Shown here piece after piece: positions 18,787-29,248 of a DNA stretch of 33,724 nucleotides. The notes below the pieces were generated by a model that saw only the letters and a program-made list of their open reading frames with translations, had not been told where the DNA came from and ran no database searches. Made by a program: the position numbers and the translations under genes. The stretch comes from Phycisphaerae bacterium (GTDB lineage: Bacteria > Planctomycetota > Phycisphaerae > UBA1845), in contig JAUIEW010000021.1 of assembly GCA_030429365.1 (NCBI GenBank), positions 1 to 33,724 of the forward strand, read 5' to 3'. Within the stretch, counting starts at the first letter, position 1, and every line of letters starts with the position of its first letter.

Positions 18787-20895
18787 CTATTCGGGCGCTA
18801 CATAGTGCCATTCGCATTGATCGGTCATGGTTTGCCCTTGGTCTGTGCCGACTGCGCGAATCGTGTTCGATCCGGCAGAGAGGATGACCGTGGGCCACTC
18901 GAAGATGTGGTTGTTGCTTTGCTTTACCGGGTATGATCGGTCACCGACGGATAGGCTCACCTCTGAACAATTACTGTAAACCTTGACCGGGACCGTTTGG
19001 TTGTAGCGCTGGTTGAATCTGCTACTCGTGATGTGAACGAATGGCTCATCCGACCAGTTGGCTTTGTACCAGAAGAACGCATCCTTCTTGATCTGACGGT
19101 CATAGGTGACCAGCCCCTTGTCGTTTCGCCCGGGCGCACCGCCTTCATTGCGTTGGTCGCAGGCGAAGTCGAACATGTTCCAAACGAAGCTTCCCCAGAT
19201 AAATGGCCGTGCGTCGATCTGCCGCCAATGACTTTCGTGAAAGAGCGCCTGGTATTCCTCCGGATGCCAATGGCTGTCGTGTTGCGATTTCTTCGGAGGC
19301 AGTTCATGGTGCGCAACGTTGGCGCCTGCGCCGTACTCGCTGATGCCGATGGGGACGGCGGGATGCTTCTCGTGCATTTGGTCGACCCAAGCCCCGAAAT
19401 CGTCGGCTGAATCGTGGTACCACCCGAAATAACGGTTGAATGCAACCAACTCCGTTTGCCAGTTGGCGGCATTTTCGTCCGGTGTGGTTGCAGCACACAC
19501 CGACTGGCGCGTCGGGTCTTCCGCCTTTGCAAGCTTGGCCAACTCCGTGACCAGCGGAATCGGATCGGGCCCCGGTTCCCATGGGGCGGTGATTTCATTG
19601 TGAACACCCCAAAAACAAATGGATGGGTGGTTGTAGTTCTGACGGATGAGTTCAATGAGTTGTTGGCGACTGTTTTCGCGAAACGCATTGGTGTGAAAGA
19701 CTCGGTTGATCAGTGGAATCTCAGCCCAAACGATCAGCCCCAATTGATCGCACAAATCGTAAGCGTATGGGTCTTGTTGATAGTGGGCAAGCCGAACGCA
19801 GGTGCAACCCAACTCACGGATCATCGCGAAATCTTCGTCGTGATGTTTGCGGCTGATCGCCCACCCGATGTCCTGGCGATCCTGATGGCGATTCACACCG
19901 TGGAGCGGATATGGTTTGCCGTTGAGCGTAAACCCTTGGTCTGGATCGACGTTGAACGTGCGAATGCCGAACGATTGCTCATCGCGATCAACGATTTGGT
20001 CTCCGTCAAGCAGCGTCAGCCGCGCTGTGTACATGTAAGGATCTTCGATGCCATGCCAGAGATGCGGCTTGGCGACTTCAACTGCGACCGATGTTGAGGA
20101 TTGACCGTGTCGAACGTTTTCAAGAACCGTTTCTTCGTTTGCGACAGTCTCGCCTTCGCGGTCGATGATTTCCATCCGTGCGCGGAGGTTCGATCTCGTC
20201 GAACCGCTGTTATCGAGCCTGATCGATACTGTGACCGTGGCACTTTCCGCGCCAACTTCTTGCGTCGTCACGTACACGCCCGACGACGCATGGTCCAATG
20301 GAGAAATGCAAAGCGGGCCGGTAAATAGAAGCGACACGTCGCGATATATTCCTCCGAAGAATGTGAAGTCCGCTCCATATGGCGGCACATCTGGGTGCAT
20401 GGCGTTGCTGACAAAAATCAGCAGATCGTTGTCCTGTCCCCAGTCGACAACGTCGGTCAGTTCGAAGACAAATGCGGCGTATCCACCGCGATGTTCGCCA
20501 ACGAATCGCCCATTGAGGAAGACATTCGCCACGGAATTCGCGGCTCCAACCTTCAAGAAGACACGCTCGTTTTCATAACGCTCCGGAATCGGGATGCGCT
20601 TCAGGTACGCCGCTGTCGTGCGAAGGTAATCGGCGCCGCCATCCTGACCATCCAGTGCATTCCAGGTGTGCGGGAGGTCGACGGCTGACGCGCCCGCTGC
20701 ATTGATGTAAGGGCAGCGGATGGACCGCATCGGCGACATGAGCACGTGCCAGCGGCCATTGATGTCCACCCAAGTGCGATAGCCTGGGTGCGAATGCATT
20801 GAAATTGCGTCATCCGCAAATAGATGGCTGGCTGATCCCATCATGCTGGCGGCCAAGATTGACATGATTCCCAGCGTTGGGCAGACGTTGCTCAT
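18787..20895 (-). CDS. Secreted glycoside hydrolase family 2 protein (beta-galactosidase/beta-glucuronidase-like)
   Basis: 702 residues. A signal peptide fills about the first 27 (hydrophobic run to SHLFADDA), so it is exported. A sugar-binding jelly-roll domain follows (about 40-190; DLPHTWNALDGQDGG, FLNGRFVGEHRGGYAAF, FTFFGGIYRDVSL), then an Ig-like domain (about 200-310) and a TIM barrel from about 315 (LHGVNRHQDRQDIGWAIS). The acid/base is Glu434 in CFWGVHNEI and the nucleophile Glu520 in GISEYGAG, both intact. An extra C-terminal beta domain ends the protein. GAAGGA about eight bases upstream supports the ATG. GH2 enzymes release galactose, glucuronate or mannose ends; the exact sugar cannot be read from these motifs. 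It converges with cheW and has no sugar-use neighbours. Confidence 0.93.
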   Translation of the reverse strand: MSNVCPTLGIMSILAASMMGSASHLFADDAISMHSHPGYRTWVDINGRWHVLMSPMRSIRCPYINAAGASAVDLPHTWNALDGQDGGADYLRTTAAYLKRIPIPERYENERVFLKVGAANSVANVFLNGRFVGEHRGGYAAFVFELTDVVDWGQDNDLLIFVSNAMHPDVPPYGADFTFFGGIYRDVSLLFTGPLCISPLDHASSGVYVTTQEVGAESATVTVSIRLDNSGSTRSNLRARMEIIDREGETVANEETVLENVRHGQSSTSVAVEVAKPHLWHGIEDPYMYTARLTLLDGDQIVDRDEQSFGIRTFNVDPDQGFTLNGKPYPLHGVNRHQDRQDIGWAISRKHHDEDFAMIRELGCTCVRLAHYQQDPYAYDLCDQLGLIVWAEIPLINRVFHTNAFRENSRQQLIELIRQNYNHPSICFWGVHNEITAPWEPGPDPIPLVTELAKLAKAEDPTRQSVCAATTPDENAANWQTELVAFNRYFGWYHDSADDFGAWVDQMHEKHPAVPIGISEYGAGANVAHHELPPKKSQHDSHWHPEEYQALFHESHWRQIDARPFIWGSFVWNMFDFACDQRNEGGAPGRNDKGLVTYDRQIKKDAFFWYKANWSDEPFVHITSSRFNQRYNQTVPVKVYSNCSEVSLSVGDRSYPVKQSNNHIFEWPTVILSAGSNTIRAVGTDQGQTMTDQCEWHYVAPE

Positions 20896-21359: not shown

Positions 21360-22565
21360 ATGACACGTCGTGCTGCTGTTGTTGCTGCCGTTCGAACTCC
21401 TGTCGGGCGCTATGGCGGGAAGCTTGCATCGGTTCGCCCGGACGATCTCGCAGCGGTCGTCATTCGGGAAGTTGTCCGGCGGACAGGCATTGACGCCTCG
21501 TTCGTTGATGATGTGTACTTCGGGGCAGCCAACCAAGCCGGCGAAGACAACCGCAATGTCGCGAGGATGGCGGCTTTGCTCGCAGGGCTGCCGGAGACCA
21601 TTCCAGGTTCGACGGTGAATCGTCTGTGCGCGTCGGGGCTCGAAGCTGTGAACATCGCAGCCCGAATGATCGAGGCAAATCACGGTGATGTGTTCATCGC
21701 TGGTGGCGTTGAATCGATGAGCCGCGCGCCGTACGTACTGAGCAAAGCCGACTCGGCTTATGGGCGTGCGCAGGAGATTTTTGACACGTCCATCGGGTGG
21801 CGGTTTGTCAATCCTGCATTGTCCAAGCTGCATCATCCGTACGCGATGGGTGAGACCGCAGAAAACGTGGCGCGGAAGTACGAGATTGATCGAGAGGCGC
21901 AGGATCGATTTGCACTATCGAGCCAGCAGAAGTGGGCCGCCGCTCATGAACGTGGTGCCTTCAAGGAAGAAATCGTGCCGGTGGAAATCCCGCAGCGAAA
22001 GGGACCTTCGGTGATTGTGGATACTGACGAGCATCCGCGTCCTGATGTCACGATGGAGCAGTTGGCAAAACTCCGCCCGGTGTTTGCAAAGGATGACAAG
22101 GGGACGGTGACTGCGGGAAACTCTTCCGGTGTGAACGATGGTGCGGCAGCGCTGATGCTCGTGGAGGAATCGAAGGCCAAATCGCTTGGATTGGAACCGC
22201 TCGCGTTCGTGGGGTGCAGTGCATCGGCTGGCGTTGATCCGGCGTACATGGGACTAGGGCCGATTCCAGCGATTCGCAAGGCGCTGGATCGTGCAGAACT
22301 GACGCTTGACGACATGGGACTCGTCGAAATCAACGAAGCCTTCGCGGCACAGTCGATCGCATGTCAGCGCGAGCTTGGAATCGACGGCGACAAATTGAAC
22401 GTGAAGGGCGGGGCGATCGCAGTTGGGCATCCCCTTGGCTGCAGCGGCGCGCGCATCGCGACGACACTCGTTCACGAAATGAGGCAACGCGGCGTAGAAC
22501 GCGCCATCGCTTCACTGTGTGTTGGCGTGGGGCAAGGTCTGGCGACTGTTTTCGAAATGGCGTAG
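21360..22565 (+). CDS. Thiolase, PcaF-like (3-oxoadipyl-CoA thiolase / acetyl-CoA acyltransferase family)
   Basis: 401 residues from ATG 21360; the open frame extends to TTG 21282, but the thiolase N-terminus ([21 protein letters not shown]) begins at the ATG. Catalytic residues are present: Cys90 in [11 protein letters not shown], His357 in [12 protein letters not shown], and Cys387 in SLCVGVGQG. The stretches [20 protein letters not shown] and [11 protein letters not shown] are hallmarks of the PcaF/PaaJ branch, which cleaves 3-oxoadipyl-CoA to succinyl-CoA and acetyl-CoA; by motif I place it closer to that branch than to plain acetoacetyl-CoA thiolases. It faces the aminotransferase gene tail to tail, 26 bases apart, and would complete the pathway encoded by the minus-strand operon. 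Related enzymes accept several 3-oxoacyl-CoAs, so the substrate is open. Confidence 0.94.
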
Positions 22566-22591
22566 ACACCTTCTCCACAGGGCCCGCGCAC

Positions 22592-23914
22592 TTACGGCAT
22601 CGACGCGATCTTTGCCAAGCCCGATTCCATGGCGGCGACCAGGGCGTCAATCTCCACTTCGGTCATCGGGGTTGAAAGCGTCGCAGAGCACGTATTGATC
22701 ATCAGGAAACCTTCATCAAACAGATGATCGAGTAGCGCAGTCAACCGATTCTTCTCGGCGTCCGTGTTAAATGCTTCGCGGAAGTTGTGCGGAGGTTCTT
22801 CCTTCATATGGACACGCAGCATCGAGCCGCCACCCGTGACGCTTGCACGAGCACCAGTGGTGTCGATGGCTTTTTGAATTCCCTCGATCGCACGATTTGT
22901 CAATCCGTTGAGGCGAGCAATCTCCTTGTGGTCGAATAGTTGCATTGCGGTGAGCCCTGCCGACGTGGAGATGGGGTTGGCAGAGAATGTACCGGAATGC
23001 GGAAACAGATACTTGTGGGATTTGGGATTGAGCACGTCCATGACTTCGGCACGACCCGCCACTGCACCGACCGGGAAACCGCCGCCGATCATCTTGCCCA
23101 AGGCAGTGAGGTCGGGCTTGATGCCGAAGCGCGTCTGAAGGCCACCATATTCCGAGCGGAAGGTGATGACTTCGTCGAGCACGAGGAGGGCATTGTGTTC
23201 AGTGACCCAATTTCGTATGGCCTCAAGGTATTCAGGCTTTGCGAGATTCAGGCCGACGCGATGGGGCATGAGATCGAGTAGGACACAGGCAACCTCGTGG
23301 GCGTGTGCATTGAGGATATTGATGGCGCGCTCGGCGTTGTTAAACGGGATGATCACAACATCGCGAAGCGCAGACTCCGGTGTGCCGAAAACGAGCGGAA
23401 CGGAGTGCGGTTTGTCATCGCTGCCCCAGGTTTCCGGCGTCGGCGCCTGCGAGACCTCGGCGTAATCGTATCCCCCGTGGTAGGCGCCTTCGACCTTGGC
23501 GACCTTGTATTTACCAGTGAACGCACGGCTGGCTTTGATCGCGACCATGATGGCCTCGGTGCCGGAGTTGACGAATCGGAGCATGTCGAACGACGGCGAT
23601 CGTGAGCAAAGGTGCTCGGCGTATACGACTTCGGCTTCCGTGGCCATCATGAATGCTGAACCGCGGGCCATCTGCTCGTTGACGACCCGAACGATTTCGG
23701 GATGGGCGTGCCCATGGATGAGCGAGGCCATGTTGTTCGAGAAGTCGATTCGCGTAACGCCGTCAATGTCGGTGACCCGGCAGCCTTTGCCGAAAGCCAC
23801 GTATGGCGGGTAGGGGGCGCGAATGATGGAGTTGCGCGAGACGCCGCCAGGGAGGACTTTTTGCGCCCTCGCGTAGAGTTCGGCGCTTCTCGAGAGTTCA
23901 GTTTGCGTTTTCAT
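22592..23914 (-). CDS. Class III (PLP) aminotransferase, GSAM-like; candidate beta-amino acid transaminase
   Basis: 440 residues. PLP-binding motifs are intact: NSGTEAIMVAIKASRA at about 117-131, YHGGYDY at about 145, Asp247 in LLVLDEVITFR, and the Schiff-base Lys274 in LGKMIGGGFPVGAVAGR. The fold matches glutamate-1-semialdehyde aminomutase, but the N-terminal substrate loop reads PGGVSRNSIIRAPYPPY (Arg27) instead of the PGGVNSPVRAF of true aminomutases. A Gly-Gly-x-Ser/Thr-Arg loop before a Pro-aromatic-Pro is what I recall in beta-phenylalanine-type transaminases. It is the last gene of an operon in which its ATG overlaps the preceding stop (ATGA). The expected reaction is conversion of a beta-amino acid to a 3-oxoacid, which the CoA transferase can then activate. 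The fold is sure; the substrate is inference. Confidence 0.9.
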   Translation of the reverse strand: MKTQTELSRSAELYARAQKVLPGGVSRNSIIRAPYPPYVAFGKGCRVTDIDGVTRIDFSNNMASLIHGHAHPEIVRVVNEQMARGSAFMMATEAEVVYAEHLCSRSPSFDMLRFVNSGTEAIMVAIKASRAFTGKYKVAKVEGAYHGGYDYAEVSQAPTPETWGSDDKPHSVPLVFGTPESALRDVVIIPFNNAERAINILNAHAHEVACVLLDLMPHRVGLNLAKPEYLEAIRNWVTEHNALLVLDEVITFRSEYGGLQTRFGIKPDLTALGKMIGGGFPVGAVAGRAEVMDVLNPKSHKYLFPHSGTFSANPISTSAGLTAMQLFDHKEIARLNGLTNRAIEGIQKAIDTTGARASVTGGGSMLRVHMKEEPPHNFREAFNTDAEKNRLTALLDHLFDEGFLMINTCSATLSTPMTEVEIDALVAAMESGLAKIASMP

Positions 23915-24594
23915 TTCTTGCCTGCCGTAGCGCTTTCGCGAATGTCGCTGAGTGGAGCGCCGGTTTGGTTTTGAACGTCTTTGAATTCGACACCCGGGCT
24001 AAGTTCGGTAACCCCAAAGCCGCCCGGCGTAACGTCGATAACCGCGAGGTTTGTGTAAATACGATTAACCACTCCAAGCCCGGTCAGTGGGTACGTGCAT
24101 GATTCGACGAGTTTGGGCTCGCCCTGCTTGGTAGTGTGCTGAGTGATGACGTAAATGGACTTGACCCCGGCCACGAGGTCCATCGCGCCGCCGACAGCCG
24201 GTATCGCATCGGGCTGCCCCGTTGACCAGTTTGCAAGATCGCCGTTTTGAGCTACCTGCAACGCGCCAAGTACGCAGAGATCGATGTGCCCTCCGCGAAT
24301 CATGACAAAGCTGTCCGCGTGGTGAAAGTATGCGGCGCCTGGCATCGCGGTGACCTGCCGCTTGCCAGCATTGATCAGTTCCGGATCGCCCTGACCGGCA
24401 GCAGGTGACGGGCCCATACCAATCAGACCATTCTCCGTATGGTAGATCAGCGTTTTGTCTTCGGGCACGAATTTCGCAACGAGTTCGGGAATGCCGATGC
24501 CAAGATTCACGTACCACCCGTTGGGTATGTCTTGGGCGAGTCGGGCGGCCATCTCGTCTCGCGACCTTCCCGCTTTTAGATCATTGCTGGTCAT
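23911..24594 (-). CDS. 3-oxoacid CoA-transferase, subunit B (PcaJ/ScoB-like)
   Basis: 227 residues, usual length for the beta subunit. The catalytic glutamate is Glu54 in YHTENGLIGMGP, which forms the glutamyl-CoA intermediate. Other family stretches are VNLGIGIPELVAKFV, GGHIDLCVLGALQV, GGAMDLVAGVKSIYVITQHTT, and CTYPLTGLGVVNRIYTNLAVIDV; the last has the PcaJ-type form. With subunit A it would move CoA, probably from succinyl-CoA, to a 3-oxoacid. The start overlaps the stop of subunit A by four bases and the stop overlaps the aminotransferase ATG by four bases, so translation is coupled on both sides. Confidence 0.94.
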   Translation of the reverse strand: MTSNDLKAGRSRDEMAARLAQDIPNGWYVNLGIGIPELVAKFVPEDKTLIYHTENGLIGMGPSPAAGQGDPELINAGKRQVTAMPGAAYFHHADSFVMIRGGHIDLCVLGALQVAQNGDLANWSTGQPDAIPAVGGAMDLVAGVKSIYVITQHTTKQGEPKLVESCTYPLTGLGVVNRIYTNLAVIDVTPGGFGVTELSPGVEFKDVQNQTGAPLSDIRESATAGKK

Positions 24595-25301
24595 GGATAG
24601 GTGGCTCCCGCGGCGACGAGTTCGGATTCGTGGGCAGGCTGTGCAACTTGAACGACACGATCCACAAAGATGCCCGGCGTCACGATCGTCTCAGGGTCAA
24701 TCTCGCCAGCCTCCACGACACTTTCAACCTGAACGATGGTGGTTTCAGCGGCCGTCGCCATGATCGGTCCGAAGTTGCGAGCTGTTTTGTTATAGAGCAG
24801 GTTGCCGTGGACGTCAGCCATGCGCGCCTTGATGATGGTGAAGTCTGCCCGAAGGCCCCGTTCCATCACGTATTGCTTGCCTTCAAACTCACGCAGTTCC
24901 TTGCCCTCGGCCAGCGGCGTACCGACAGCCGTCGCGGTGTAGAAGGCAGGGACTCCCGCGCCGCCGCAGCGAATGCGCTCGGCCAGTGTGCCCTGCGGAA
25001 CCAGTTCGAGTTTGATTTGCCCGTTGCGGTATAGTTCGGTAAAGACGGTTGAGTTTGCGGTTCGTGGATACGAGCAGACCGCTTTCGAAACGCGGCCCGC
25101 TTTGATAAGGGCTGCAAGACCGACTTCGCCGGAACCGGTGTTGTTGCTCACGATGGTCAGGTCGGATGCGCCCTGATCGATGAGCGCGTGCAGCAACTCG
25201 ATAGGACTGCCTGCTTCGCCGAACCCACCGATCATGATGGTCGCGCCGTCGAAGACATCGGCGACCGCTTCATGTGCGGTGTTCACACGCTTGTCAATCA
25301 T
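24591..25301 (-). CDS. 3-oxoacid CoA-transferase, subunit A (PcaI/ScoA-like)
   Basis: 236 residues from the ATG at 25301. That ATG overlaps the aminomutase stop as ATGA, the same coupling used by the next two genes; an ATG three codons upstream (25310) is the alternative. The glycine-rich CoA loop is IMIGGFGEAGSPIELL. The run KAVCSYPRTANSTVFTELYR, then LELVPQGTLAERIRCGG and LLYNKTARNFGPIMATAAE, and the end TPGIFVDRVVQV match PcaI (3-oxoadipate CoA-transferase) closely by memory, more so than AtoD or ScoA. It functions as a heteromer with subunit B. Its position right after the aminomutase and before the transaminase ties CoA activation to amino acid breakdown. Confidence 0.94.
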   Translation of the reverse strand: MIDKRVNTAHEAVADVFDGATIMIGGFGEAGSPIELLHALIDQGASDLTIVSNNTGSGEVGLAALIKAGRVSKAVCSYPRTANSTVFTELYRNGQIKLELVPQGTLAERIRCGGAGVPAFYTATAVGTPLAEGKELREFEGKQYVMERGLRADFTIIKARMADVHGNLLYNKTARNFGPIMATAAETTIVQVESVVEAGEIDPETIVTPGIFVDRVVQVAQPAHESELVAAGATYP

Positions 25302-26764
25302 CCCGCGCATCCTGGTCTTTTGGAAGATGACGGATCACTGGTCGGCGCCTCGCCGGCTTTCTTCACCCGGTTGTAGTTATACAATCCGGCTTCGTCGAAG
25401 AGCACGCGGTCTTCATAGTCGTCGAACCAGACCGCCTTCGGGTTGCGACCGACGATACAAACCTTCCCCTTATCCGGCGCGCTGCCCGCATTGCGGAGAA
25501 TCTTGAAAATCACGACGCCATTCTCTGACCCAGGCAAACCCGGAATCGGTTCATTGGTGACAGCCGCCACCTCCGTCTTGCCTTTGTAGTGGGTAATCGA
25601 AAGTTTGGCATGGCATTCGACGCCAGACAATCCGCGCTGCGACGTGTTGAGAATATTCCATGCGTCTTCGATCGGGATGTTGAATGCCCGGTATGCGACG
25701 ATGTCGCGGCCGCAGAAAAAGTAATGATTCTCTCCGCCAGCCCGTTTGAATTCGCGTTGGAGAATGCGGAGCGCATCGGCGTCGTCGTTGATGCCTTTGA
25801 TGATGGGGGCTTGGTTCTCAACCGTCAGCCACCCGCGGGAAACGAGGCCTCGCATCGCCTTGCCAGTATCCGGAATCCACTGTTTGAAGCCCTTTTCATC
25901 CTCGATGAAGTTGCCATCGGCGTCCTTGGCGAGGATCTCGTCGGGATGCTGGAAGTGCAGCATGAAGTGCATGCCGACCTGCGGATAGGTCTCGTGAAAC
26001 TTGTCGAGCATTTCCAGGAAGTTGTTGTCGAAACGCTGGGGGTAGAATGCCATTTCCTTGGTGCCGACGCGGATGGATTCGATCCCGGCTTCTGCCAGTG
26101 CGCCAAACCATGCTGCGAGTTTGGAATTGCTCAAGACCATCGCATCGCCGCCCGAAAGGAGAATCTCGCGGAGTTTCTCGCGGCCGGTTTCGGGATGACG
26201 CCCGCCGTTGGCTTCGATGGCCGCGTTGGTTTCCTTAATATATGCGACGATCTCCGGAATCTGCGCAAGACCCTTCTTCGCGACCGTCCCATCCTGCCGC
26301 TCGATTTCTTTTCGGGCGATCAGTTCTTCGCGGTAGCAAAAACGGCAGTGCGCGGAGCACGTCGAAATGACGTACATCAGGCCCATTTCGTACTTGTGCA
26401 GCAGCCCCTCGACGGGTGAATAGTCCATCTGGTAACCGGGGTCTTCCGAACCTTGAAGGTTGTCGGTTTCGTCCGGGCTGGCTTTCACGATTCGGCTGAT
26501 CGCTGCGGAATTCTTTGCGAGTTCGTAATAGTGACGGGTCATCTTCACCGGCATGCGCTTCTCAACATCGCGCTCGGTCCCTTTCAGGACCCGCAAGGAG
26601 ACGACTTCGTCTTCGGAATAGAAATGCAGCATGTCCTCCGGCGCTTTTTCGTCGAAAAACGGCGAGAGTCCATTGATGATGTCGCGTTGGTATTGGGTGT
26701 CCTTGACCGTGTCGAGAAACGCCTGCTCGCGCGCGGTGGGAATGTGCTGTAGCTTCTGAATCAT
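25298..26764 (-). CDS. KamA-like radical SAM aminomutase (PLP-dependent 2,3-aminomutase family), divergent substrate site
   Basis: 488 residues from ATG 26764, which has GGAG eight bases upstream; a TTG one codon earlier is less likely. The radical SAM cluster motif is CSAHCRFCYREEL (Cys136, Cys140, Cys143), followed by LLSGGDAMVLS for SAM binding. The barrel end IIKGINDDADALRILQREF matches the KamA family (LLRGVND type). The PLP lysine is probably Lys396 in HYKGKTEV; the GGGGK loop of classical KamA is reduced. The two aspartates that hold the lysine side chain in lysine 2,3-aminomutase (Asp293, Asp330) align here with Arg353 and with a hydrophobic/Thr stretch. The protein is about 70 residues longer than the clostridial enzyme. 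It is the first gene of the operon and would shift an amino group from C2 to C3, probably of an acidic amino acid. Confidence 0.9.
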   Translation of the reverse strand: MIQKLQHIPTAREQAFLDTVKDTQYQRDIINGLSPFFDEKAPEDMLHFYSEDEVVSLRVLKGTERDVEKRMPVKMTRHYYELAKNSAAISRIVKASPDETDNLQGSEDPGYQMDYSPVEGLLHKYEMGLMYVISTCSAHCRFCYREELIARKEIERQDGTVAKKGLAQIPEIVAYIKETNAAIEANGGRHPETGREKLREILLSGGDAMVLSNSKLAAWFGALAEAGIESIRVGTKEMAFYPQRFDNNFLEMLDKFHETYPQVGMHFMLHFQHPDEILAKDADGNFIEDEKGFKQWIPDTGKAMRGLVSRGWLTVENQAPIIKGINDDADALRILQREFKRAGGENHYFFCGRDIVAYRAFNIPIEDAWNILNTSQRGLSGVECHAKLSITHYKGKTEVAAVTNEPIPGLPGSENGVVIFKILRNAGSAPDKGKVCIVGRNPKAVWFDDYEDRVLFDEAGLYNYNRVKKAGEAPTSDPSSSKRPGCAG

Positions 26765-26798
26765 CAATGGATCTCCGCTTCAGATGTCGATATTGTTT

Positions 26799-26826
26799 TT
26801 GATCTGTCTGTAACGTAGTGTACACT
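26799..26826 (+). promoter_or_regulatory. Putative promoter of the RpiR-type regulator gene
   Basis: A -35 box TTGATC (26799-26804) and a -10 box TACACT (26821-26826) are separated by 16 bases. The -10 box lies inside the palindrome, which fits autoregulation. The ribosome binding site AAAGGGGG at 26855-26862 follows, five bases before the TTG start codon. Confidence 0.4.
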
Positions 26827-26829
26827 ACG
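26814..26829. promoter_or_regulatory. 16-bp perfect palindrome, likely operator for the RpiR-type regulator
   Basis: CGTAGTGTACACTACG is a perfect inverted repeat in the 103-base gap between the divergent aminomutase and regulator genes. It covers the candidate -10 boxes of both promoters (TACACT on each strand, created by the palindrome itself), so a bound protein would block both. The neighbouring RpiR-type protein is the obvious ligand. Binding itself is inference. Confidence 0.65.
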
Positions 26830-26844
26830 AGCGTGGAATTGCAA
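26817..26844 (-). promoter_or_regulatory. Putative promoter of the aminomutase operon
   Basis: On the minus strand, TTGCAA (26844-26839) and TACACT (26822-26817) are separated by 16 bases, the same geometry as the plus-strand promoter. The two promoters overlap face to face through the palindrome. The predicted leader to the ATG is about 45 bases. Confidence 0.4.
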
Positions 26845-26867
26845 CAAAATGACCAAAGGGGGAATCC

Positions 26868-27716
26868 TTGTCGATTCAGGATCTCATTGCAGCCGCGGGC
26901 GACCGTCTGACACCTACCGATCGACGGATCGCAGAGGCGGTGGTTGAAAATCCGACCCTGGTGGCGTTTGGGACCGTATCGGACCTGGCCGACCATGTGG
27001 GAACGAGTCGACCTTCGATCGTCCGGTTTGCGACGAAGCTGGGGTTCAAGGGGTACTCGGACCTTCAAACGCACGAACGCAATCAGGTTTCGAATCAACT
27101 CGCCAGACCGAGCCACCGAATCCGACAGCATCAGGAGACGGGACCGCTACGTCGCTCGATACACGGGGCGATCGATGACGTGTTTGAGTCCCTCACCGAT
27201 GAGCGGCTGAACGCGCTGGTCAAACCGATGGTCGATGCGTCTCATGTTTGGGTCCTTTCCGGTGAGACGTCGATGGCCGGTGCGCACAAACTTTACACGG
27301 GATTGTCCATCCTCCGCCCCAATGTACGGTTGATGACCGAGTTTGAGATGGGGCGGGAACTGGTGGGGGCCCGCGCCGGCGAAGCGGCGATCGTATTCGA
27401 TTTCAGTCGATACCGGCGGCATTCGATCAGCGTTACGCAAGCGCTGGCGGATGCGGGCGTTACGATCCTGGCGATCACGGATGGGCCGCTATCCCCGCTC
27501 GCGCGGATGTCGCATGCTTGTGGCTATCTGAAGATTCCAGCGGTCGGGCCGTTTGACAGTTCGGTGCCTTCTGTTGTTGCGGCAGAACTCGTCGTTGCGC
27601 GCGCCGCAGTATTGCTGGGTGATGGGGCGCGCGAACGAATTGATCGGTTGGAATCTCTGTGGCAGGCGACAGGCATCTTCTTCGACGGTGAGCGAGGAAC
27701 CTCTAACGAAGCATAA
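26868..27716 (+). CDS. MurR/RpiR family transcriptional regulator (HTH + SIS domain)
   Basis: 282 residues starting at TTG 26868, with AAAGGGGG five bases upstream. The N-terminal HTH (about 1-78) has LTPTDRRIAEAVVENP, then VSDLADHVGTSRPSIVRFATKLGFKGYSDLQ, the RpiR signature. The SIS domain covers about 120-260 (VWVLSGETSMAGAHKL, EAAIVFDFSRYRRHSISVTQALADAG, ILAITDGPLSPLA). RpiR proteins usually sense phosphosugars through the SIS domain; here the neighbours are amino acid and CoA enzymes, so the ligand may be a pathway intermediate instead. The gene is divergent from the aminomutase operon across a perfect palindrome and is the likely local regulator. Confidence 0.94.
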   Translation: MSIQDLIAAAGDRLTPTDRRIAEAVVENPTLVAFGTVSDLADHVGTSRPSIVRFATKLGFKGYSDLQTHERNQVSNQLARPSHRIRQHQETGPLRRSIHGAIDDVFESLTDERLNALVKPMVDASHVWVLSGETSMAGAHKLYTGLSILRPNVRLMTEFEMGRELVGARAGEAAIVFDFSRYRRHSISVTQALADAGVTILAITDGPLSPLARMSHACGYLKIPAVGPFDSSVPSVVAAELVVARAAVLLGDGARERIDRLESLWQATGIFFDGERGTSNEA

Positions 27717-27899: not shown

Positions 27900-28967
27900 T
27901 CAATTGCCGTACCACTCCCGCGCTCGCTGGCGCTTCATCGGCTGCCACTGGTTCTGTCGGCGCTGCTGTTGAATTTGCAGACCTTGTGGTCCTTGCGGGC
28001 CGCCTTGGGAACCATCGATGATGGCGTCGAATTCATCCTGTGTGAGGAATTCCGGCGTATAGGTCTCGCCTTGTGCCGTCAGCAGTCGCACGAACGCTTT
28101 CAAGTGGTTGCAGGAGCCAGATTCAAGGTTTTCGAAGACTCGTACGACGCAGAAGCAGTCGACTTCGTTCAATGCGTTTCGCAGGTCGATAATGTCGAGG
28201 TCTTCGATGTACGCGCCAACGGTGAGGGCGCCCACCTGCGACGCCGATCCCTGTGCGACCAATTGCGTGTACAAATCATTAAGCGCAGGGTTGGTGAACA
28301 CGCCTGGCGTATCGTCCACGACCGGGTCGACGAGTTCGTACGTGTCAATAAGTGCCTTGATCGCATCCATGTGCTTCTGCTCGGAACGGCTGATGTTGTC
28401 GAATACCCGCACTCCCCAGAGATCAAACATGGCCAAGTATACGTCCCGGGCGAGTTTCTCCTCCTCGCGCATGAACAGGATGTGGGCGATTTCAACATCG
28501 GTGAGCGTTTGCACTTGAATCAATCGAGATTGCGAAACCGCCGCTGGATCCGACAGCACAAGTGAATTGCCGTTTTGCTTGGGCGGGGCTGGATCGGCGA
28601 TCACCCGAATGGAATCGGCGCCTTCAAAGGCCAAGCCCTGGTTGGTGAATCCGCTCAATACGAGTGTGGCAACGCCCGGCGCAACGATGGCCTCGACTTC
28701 ATCCTGGTGGAATTTGGCAACCAGATGGCCCAAGGCGTCTGACTTGGTCAGATAGGGCGCGATACCGCTAAGTTCAACCGTGTCGCGCTGCACAGCGCTT
28801 AGTGCGATGTCGGTATGCACGGTGACAGCCGCGCCTTTGTCCAATCCCAAGACGATATTGCTCGGGGAAATCTGCACGTCGATATGCACTGTGTCGTCGG
28901 CGATTGCGCCAGCAGCAAAAGTCACTGCAATCACTGGCGCTGCCAAGAGAATCATTCTGCGAATCAT
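27900..28967 (-). CDS. Secreted DUF2202 (ferritin-like) protein with N-terminal beta domain
   Basis: 355 residues from ATG 28967, which has a perfect AGGAGG seven bases upstream; the frame runs further up but that start is clearly right. A signal peptide (about 1-24, ending AGAIADD) exports it. Residues about 27-125 look like an Ig/cohesin-like beta module (VHIDVQISPSNIVLGLDKG, LVLSGFTNQGLAFEGADSIRVI). The DUF2202 domain spans about 150-315, with ferritin-like helices: REEEKLARDVYLAMFDLWG, SRSEQKHMDAIKALIDTY, GAYIEDLDIIDLRNAL, and CNHLKAFVRLL. The Glu and His residues in these helices could hold a di-metal centre, as proposed for this superfamily. A Gln/Pro-rich tail ends it. The function of DUF2202 is unproven. 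It follows the histidine kinase gene by 281 bases. Confidence 0.9.
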   Translation of the reverse strand: MIRRMILLAAPVIAVTFAAGAIADDTVHIDVQISPSNIVLGLDKGAAVTVHTDIALSAVQRDTVELSGIAPYLTKSDALGHLVAKFHQDEVEAIVAPGVATLVLSGFTNQGLAFEGADSIRVIADPAPPKQNGNSLVLSDPAAVSQSRLIQVQTLTDVEIAHILFMREEEKLARDVYLAMFDLWGVRVFDNISRSEQKHMDAIKALIDTYELVDPVVDDTPGVFTNPALNDLYTQLVAQGSASQVGALTVGAYIEDLDIIDLRNALNEVDCFCVVRVFENLESGSCNHLKAFVRLLTAQGETYTPEFLTQDEFDAIIDGSQGGPQGPQGLQIQQQRRQNQWQPMKRQRAREWYGN

Positions 28968-29248
28968 TTCAGAACCTCCTTTGTATGATGGACGCATTGG
29001 AAGCGCATTTGCGAACTGCGCTTTGGCGAAGCAAGACGTCTGCTCTCTGGGCCCTCCCAGACCAACTTGGTGATGAAGCAATATGACATTCAGAGCAACA
29101 ATCGCGCGCGTCGCAGTCTTCTTGCCGTCGGGCAATTCCAACTTGGAATCGCTCGACCAGAATTAAGAATAGCCTTGGGATTTCGCCGGTGCAGAGTTGC
29201 TTAAAGGGGATTAAGGCCCTGAGAGTACGACGCGTACGAAGAGGTTCG
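28968..29248. other. Upstream region of the DUF2202 gene
   Basis: 281 bases between the histidine kinase stop and the DUF2202 start, on the minus strand. It contains the AGGAGG site and presumably the DUF2202 promoter. No gene, strong hairpin or consensus promoter is apparent. The gap is large compared with the 19-45 base spacing further up, so the DUF2202 gene may have its own transcript. Confidence 0.4.

Follow-up and report, generated by a model that had tools for sequence, protein, structure and literature searches.

Several described systems resemble parts of the locus analysed here, a gene cluster around a KamA-like aminomutase in a stretch of 33,724 nucleotides (the window) from contig JAUIEW010000021.1 of a Phycisphaerae bacterium. 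The kamA-yodPQRST operon of Bacillus subtilis reportedly encodes an aminomutase, a class III aminotransferase, the subunits of a coenzyme A (CoA) transferase, an acetyltransferase and a deacetylase, and no thiolase. In Pseudomonas, beta-lysine is said to be degraded via acetylation by transamination, CoA activation and thiolysis, and the lower beta-ketoadipate pathway uses the CoA-transferase PcaIJ and the thiolase PcaF. Our locus shares the aminomutase, the class III aminotransferase and the CoA-transferase subunits with the B. subtilis operon as reported, transamination, CoA activation and thiolysis of a beta-amino acid with the Pseudomonas route, and both the chemistry and the families of CoA-transferase and thiolase with the beta-ketoadipate pathway. 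Since a similar gene set is thus reported for B. subtilis and a similar logic for beta-lysine catabolism, the locus is not without precedent. It differs from the B. subtilis operon, which is said to have the acetyltransferase and deacetylase instead of a thiolase, and from the Pseudomonas route, which reportedly takes an acetylated substrate and gives a monoamino product. In the part of PMC6522883 that covers these genes, KamA (BSU19690) and YodT (BSU19740) are both SigE-dependent and the substrate of KamA is lysine, so that a true lysine aminomutase under sporulation control stands against a local RpiR-type regulator in our locus.

We propose that the six genes between positions 21360 and 27716 constitute a catabolic module that is self-contained and controlled by a single local regulator, with 2-aminoadipate as the most likely substrate, a reading to which we assign a probability of roughly 0.55. 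KamX, as we call the KamA-like protein, would act as a radical S-adenosylmethionine (SAM), pyridoxal phosphate (PLP)-dependent 2,3-aminomutase on an L-alpha-amino dicarboxylate, most likely L-2-aminoadipate derived from lysine, which would yield 3-aminoadipate. The aminotransferase would convert this to 3-oxoadipate, the PcaIJ-like transferase would place CoA on it, probably from succinyl-CoA, and the PcaF-like thiolase would cleave 3-oxoadipyl-CoA with CoA to succinyl-CoA and acetyl-CoA. RpiR would control the divergent promoter via a conserved site. We infer these reactions, the substrate, the CoA donor and the binding and direction of regulation from computational observations, namely family identities, conserved catalytic residues, synteny, the restriction of the aminotransferase to KamX genomes among those sampled, replacements of the same chemistry and one operator-like site. 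The general chain from alpha- to beta-amino acid, 3-oxoacid, 3-oxoacyl-CoA and thiolysis, which the initial annotation had outlined, is very probably correct and draws support from two genomes in which three steps are replaced.

A check of the open reading frames located all six genes where the initial annotation had placed them. From the divergent promoter the operon runs on the minus strand through kamX (25298-26767; 489 amino acids from TTG 26767, with ATG 26764 as the probable start), CoA-transferase subunit A (24591-25310), CoA-transferase subunit B (23911-24594) and the aminotransferase (22592-23914). Each gene overlaps the next, by 13 bp between kamX and subunit A and by 4 bp at the two following junctions, both of which read ATGA. 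The thiolase gene (21360-22565, plus strand) faces the operon; we used the start ATG 21360 of a reading frame that opens at TTG 21282. The gene of the RpiR/HexR-type regulator (26868-27716, plus strand) is divergent from kamX.

Conservation of this neighbourhood in relatives, on which the initial annotation had made its proposal depend, is far beyond chance. A contig scan of one genome per species for 84,980 species found 371 stretches encoding a KamX relative, and the best 80 of these were used; the named contigs nearest to the window belong to Phycisphaerales MAGs (metagenome-assembled genomes). Together with regions from further genomes and a Mesorhizobium plasmid they gave 106 loci, 97 of them unique, with other phyla sampled only through the contig-scan loci and the plasmid. 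The relatives among the best 80 of 371 belong mostly to Phycisphaerae and other planctomycetes, and also to MAGs that are labelled Spartobacteria, Chthoniobacterales, Verrucomicrobiota and Acidimicrobiia. Among unique loci with enough downstream sequence, subunit A follows kamX in 86 of 89 and subunit B in 83 of 86. Where at least 4.2 kb lie downstream, the aminotransferase follows in 75 of 78 loci, and all three genes are found in 75 of 78; in the Mesorhizobium locus (L045), one of the three misses, the aminotransferase gene is present just beyond the distance limit of our script. A thiolase facing the operon occupies its expected position in 46 of 74 loci, and a divergent RpiR is present in 52 of 86. 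No further gene cluster within about 9 kb of kamX recurs in more than 15 of the 97 loci (not all clusters being named), therefore the module appears to end at its six genes. In a kamA locus of Paenibacillus (L046), none of the other window proteins had a match.

The co-occurrence across genomes that the initial annotation had called for was likewise found. With thresholds of E<=1e-40 for KamX and E<=1e-120 for the aminotransferase, 23 of 392 genomes of the phylum, our own included, encode KamX and 22 encode the aminotransferase, and every genome with the aminotransferase also has KamX. When our own genome is excluded, the aminotransferase is present in 21/22 KamX genomes and in 0/369 others (Fisher p 7e-34, not corrected for phylogeny). 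One genome (G406) carries kamX and the aminotransferase gene on different contigs and has retained both.

The strongest support for the proposed order of reactions comes from two genomes in which three steps appear to be taken over by different genes with the same predicted chemistry. G381 is the one KamX genome without an aminotransferase of the window type, and its cluster is rearranged: RpiR, both CoA-transferase subunits, the thiolase and an aminotransferase of a second kind (33% identical) are divergent from KamX. The best match of this second enzyme is beta-phenylalanine aminotransferase 4ao9 (1.2e-119), followed by other beta-transaminases. The thiolase of G381 exceeds the PcaF equivalog cut-off (647.9 vs 597 bits) and lies inside the PcaF/PaaJ group in a tree that contains few reference sequences. 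The Mesorhizobium plasmid cluster (NZ_AP023244.1) combines KamX, a ferredoxin FdxA beside it, the aminotransferase and a CoA-transferase for which glutaconate CoA-transferase is the closest structure; FdxA is a plausible reductant for KamX there. Because these substitutes keep the same predicted chemistry, they support the order of reactions and, through PcaF, 3-oxoadipate as the intermediate. On the plasmid, which is typed as conjugative, the kamX cluster lies close behind a BREX-1 defence locus and GlxA-type regulators are present. An additional thiolase in Verrucomicrobia (L056, L061, L089 and L095), of the Thiolase_C_1 type according to a Pfam search of the L056 copy only, was also considered as a replacement; it makes no clear case, as L056 and L089 also keep the PcaF-like enzyme within about 9 kb.

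KamX had been described as a KamA-like radical SAM enzyme, which holds for its fold and key residues; by sequence score it is only a distant relative of KamA. The AlphaFold model is nearest to lysine 2,3-aminomutase (KamA/AblA, 2a5h_A) with Z 24.6, a root-mean-square deviation of 4.9 and 20% identity over 320 aligned residues, and the next row reached 11.8. On TIGR00238, the NCBIfam model of the KamA family of radical SAM proteins, KamX scored 85.3 bits where 199.2 are required, and the lysine-specific model lys_2_3_AblA gave 69.6 bits (cut-off 525.4). Because the TIGR00238 score is far below the cut-off and a Pfam search gave no match at 1e-3, we regard KamX as a distinct subfamily; its identity to the 15 relatives in alignment A1 is 64-80%. 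Relative to KamA-like proteins, the profile alignment shows about 25 inserted residues in front of the SGGD motif of KamX and about 20 behind its HPDE motif.

Numbered from the TTG, the CxxxCxxC motif of KamX comprises C137, C141 and C144, R146 corresponds to R134 of lysine 2,3-aminomutase and K397 to its K337; we take their roles as radical SAM motif, carboxylate-binding Arg and PLP Lys to be those of the lysine enzyme. K397 is invariant in the 41 rows of alignment A4 and R146 is found in 96 of 97 loci. The two enzymes part at the distal end of the substrate site. Position 293, Asp in 2a5h, is aligned with R354 of KamX in the pairwise alignment, with which multiple and profile alignments agree, and its counterpart is Arg in 97/97 loci. 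Asp330 is replaced by about Ser390, thus KamX has neither of the two acidic residues that mark a lysine 2,3-aminomutase and that presumably bind the epsilon-ammonium group of lysine. Since Arg is invariant at the Asp293 position while R146 and K397 are kept, the sequence suggests a distal carboxylate on the substrate. The model (predicted local distance difference test 73, low near the active site) is too weak there to place R354. A second KamA-like family of about 390-460 amino acids (L007-L017, L019 and L020), which is frequent in the same family and order, has Arg at the Asp293 position as well; its scanned member L007 is below all NCBIfam cut-offs.

The assignment of the thiolase (Cys90/His357/Cys387) as PcaF-like was borne out, as PcaF models are its best matches with 571.8 bits (cut-off 605) and, for TIGR02430, 567.5 bits (equivalog cut-off 597), both under the cut-offs. 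On the PcaF model Escherichia coli PaaJ scored 745 bits, a Sphingobium PcaF beside hydroxyquinol genes 679, the window protein 567 and AtoB 397. In the tree that also holds the G381 enzyme and has few reference sequences, the window thiolase groups next to PcaF/PaaJ. Moreover, it shares all 11 polar residues that separate four PcaF/PaaJ proteins from AtoB, FadA and YqeF, including Arg136 (in an insertion), Arg148 and His225, and at least 49 of 51 cluster thiolases keep them. Unlike in the lower beta-ketoadipate pathway, no linked gene recurs beyond the six. None of 27 genomes examined, 26 of them KamX carriers, has a PcaD above the cut-off; therefore the module genes probably do not serve aromatic catabolism.

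The partner enzymes fit the chain. CoA-transferase subunit A passes the PcaI/ScoA subfamily model TIGR02429 (348.1 bits, cut-off 128.5) and stays below the acetate CoA-transferase equivalog NF007394 (214.9 bits, cut-off 315). Subunit B passes the PcaJ/ScoB model TIGR02428 (291.8 bits, cut-off 243.55), and we take Glu54 in its TENGLIGMG motif to be catalytic. The closest CoA-transferase (67%) is encoded on a Tistrella plasmid, in the vicinity of genes for an aldehyde dehydrogenase and a DUF1338 protein. The class III aminotransferase (PLP Lys274) resembles glutamate-1-semialdehyde aminomutase and is far from HemL, with 330.8 bits against an equivalog cut-off of 527.3. Its nearest solved structure is 6k8h, the omega-transaminase of Sphaerobacter thermophilus, although identity is 39% over 400 aligned residues. 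The latter enzyme is described in part of PMC10589169 as working on beta- and gamma-amino acids, including neutral beta-amino acids. By analogy with this nearest solved relative, the window aminotransferase may act on beta-amino acids too.

A supply of the substrate is suggested by L-piperidine-6-carboxylate dehydrogenase, whose product is 2-aminoadipate. Our genome encodes this enzyme (814 bits, cut-off 730), orthologs occur in 21/22 other KamX genomes compared with 140/369 others (p 5e-8, uncorrected), and two sister genomes carry the dehydrogenase gene near the cluster. The association weakly favours 2-aminoadipate and is consistent with it without being proof. By eye, 20 loci around the dehydrogenase gene (17 in carriers and 3 in others) showed no shared lysine operon; in the non-carrier G270 a match to PF16653, the saccharopine/lysine-dehydrogenase-type family, lies just upstream of it. 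The four carriers of our own genus have a saccharopine-dehydrogenase-like gene and no ortholog of the lysine-ketoglutarate reductase query; G003, a non-carrier of this genus, has the reductase and a weaker PF16653 match only.

A number of observations speak against parts of our proposal. KamX remains below every curated KamA-family cut-off that it matches, the pairwise stretch around position 293 is weak (0.6 and 5.1 bits) though the profile alignment agrees, and Arg at this position also occurs in other planctomycete KamA-like families (L007, L018 and L022 types). A thiolase of Thermus, encoded next to a benzoate-CoA ligase, reaches 565.3 bits on PcaF, as high as the 567.5 of our protein, and so the PcaF score alone does not fix the substrate; the Thermus enzyme is without Arg136 and His225. 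Weaker matches to the PcaD model are found in all 27 genomes (own best 153 bits, cut-off 255.85), and the facing thiolase is not at its expected place in 28 of 74 loci, two of which (L056 and L101) have a thiolase about 9 kb away. L-piperidine-6-carboxylate dehydrogenase does not discriminate within the family, being present in 34 of 40 relatives (own included), 4 of them with KamX, and G381 has KamX without it. The evidence for lysine-ketoglutarate reductase and saccharopine dehydrogenase as suppliers of the precursor is mixed. PF16653 does not separate carriers (16/26) from the non-carriers examined (11/20), 10 of 26 carriers have no match to it, and close orthologs of the reductase query are absent from all carriers, with three weak matches at 22-25%. 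Because these proteins are missing or unrecognised, a supply of 2-aminoadipate from lysine is unsupported for many carriers. HglS (PF07063) as a complementary alternative did not hold either: since 5/22 carriers have both, compared with 26/369 others (p 0.02), the module is not simply a substitute for HglS. The HglS matches of Phycisphaerae, for example L173-L175, are mostly long frames (at least 576 amino acids) that match in two pieces with a gap, which suggests an inserted segment. The score of the Thermus thiolase and the 10 of 26 carriers without a PF16653 protein slightly lower our confidence in the substrate.

Other substrates and purposes have to be weighed against 2-aminoadipate. A beta-lysine route, in which lysine would pass through beta-lysine, 3-oxo-6-aminohexanoate and its CoA ester to 4-aminobutyryl-CoA and acetyl-CoA, as is said of Pseudomonas and perhaps of the B. 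subtilis kamA operon, has the same gene logic, and the predicted fold of KamX is nearest to lysine 2,3-aminomutase. It is improbable nonetheless, as the ligands of the lysine ammonium group are replaced by Arg354 and about Ser390, the lys_2_3_AblA score is far below its cut-off, and no further cluster recurs in more than 15 of 97 loci (clusters not all named), which would hold for an acetyltransferase or deacetylase too. Glutamate ranks above beta-lysine and is still rather unlikely. The initial annotation had suggested both 2-aminoadipate and glutamate, of which the former is favoured by the affinity of the thiolase to PcaF and weakly by the co-occurrence of the dehydrogenase. In the glutamate version the same module would convert L-glutamate via beta-glutamate, 3-oxoglutarate and 3-oxoglutaryl-CoA to acetyl-CoA and malonyl-CoA. 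Arg354 would suit the gamma-carboxylate, and the known glutamate 2,3-aminomutase of Clostridioides, with Lys at the Asp293 site, likewise has a basic residue there. The corresponding model TIGR04368 does match KamX, but with 77.6 bits it misses the equivalog cut-off of 650 by far. Moreover, the thiolase resembles PcaF, its G381 counterpart reaches the equivalog level of a 3-oxoadipyl-CoA thiolase, and simpler routes for glutamate exist.

The strongest of the alternatives, though unlikely as well, is that the module serves an alpha-amino acid that is neutral or unusual, such as leucine via beta-leucine, and that Arg354 is structural. The Arg at the Asp293 site of other KamA-like families would agree with this, as would the neutral beta-amino acids that the Sphaerobacter transaminase accepts in the part of PMC10589169 describing it; the PcaF-type and glutaconate-type partners suggest dicarboxylates instead. 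It is very improbable that KamX makes a beta-amino acid for use as osmolyte or building block and that the other genes only clear the excess. Beta-glutamate and N-acetyl-beta-lysine are known solutes, but the catabolic genes overlap in the window, their order is conserved and no further gene cluster recurs widely.

Regarding regulation, the module seems to have its own control. The RpiR/HexR-type protein combines HTH_6 (PF01418, 54.7 bits) and SIS (PF01380, 31.6 bits) domains. The near-palindrome TGTACACTACGTTACA (26809-26824, minus strand), a putative operator of the divergent promoter, is conserved across loci. Among the 48 loci whose rpiR-kamX intergenic region could be cut out, the pattern TGTACAnTnnGTTACA is present with all 8 core bases in 26 and with 7 in 21, compared with 0.05 and 2.45 expected in shuffled sequence. 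In 15 genomes, a relaxed pattern matched between rpiR and kamX in 11 and at 4 other places, and the reversed control gave 7 matches; between the two genes an exact match of the relaxed pattern is absent in the carriers G235, G381 and G406. As the only relaxed-pattern match in the genome of the window is the one at 26809-26824, RpiR looks like a dedicated local regulator.

With somewhat less assurance, at just under even odds, we suggest that the module represents a new branch of lysine catabolism. A 2-aminoadipate 2,3-aminomutase, a new radical SAM specificity, would feed the lower beta-ketoadipate pathway with 3-aminoadipate and 3-oxoadipate and give succinyl-CoA and acetyl-CoA without glutaryl-CoA or 2-oxoadipate. 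The branch would exist in planctomycetes and Verrucomicrobia as well as in an acidimicrobial MAG and on a rhizobial plasmid. Within the literature covered, which leaves subscription literature outside, no related title joined an aminomutase with 3-oxoadipate, beta-ketoadipate or aminoadipate, 3-aminoadipate or a synonym was named in three papers, Planctomycetes and lysine aminomutase met only in the context of elongation factor P, and the residue names of a KamX-type active site had no match; in this literature the aminomutase subfamily and its likely substrate appear to be new. 2-Aminoadipate is otherwise consumed by the glutaryl-CoA and HglS routes, to which a further fate would be added. 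If our proposal is true, it would also explain what a distinct radical SAM subfamily does that has a relative in 371 stretches of one genome scan, tie lysine breakdown to the beta-ketoadipate pathway and offer an enzymatic entry to 3-aminoadipate and 3-oxoadipate.

Two contigs are probably mislabelled MAG contigs. L048 (JANQQE010000029.1), titled Alphaproteobacteria, encodes a KamX 91% identical to that of the window, and the thiolase of L097 (CALQCP020000086.1), titled Chitinophaga pinensis, groups with planctomycete thiolases. In Verrucomicrobia, a gene that by eye appears to be for DNA modification interrupts the operon of L095 between the two CoA-transferase subunits, and methyltransferase-like genes, likewise judged by eye, follow the operon in L061. 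In the window, the module is flanked by genes for a glycoside hydrolase family 2 protein (18787-20895) and a DUF2202 protein (27900-29141), which lie outside the conserved part.

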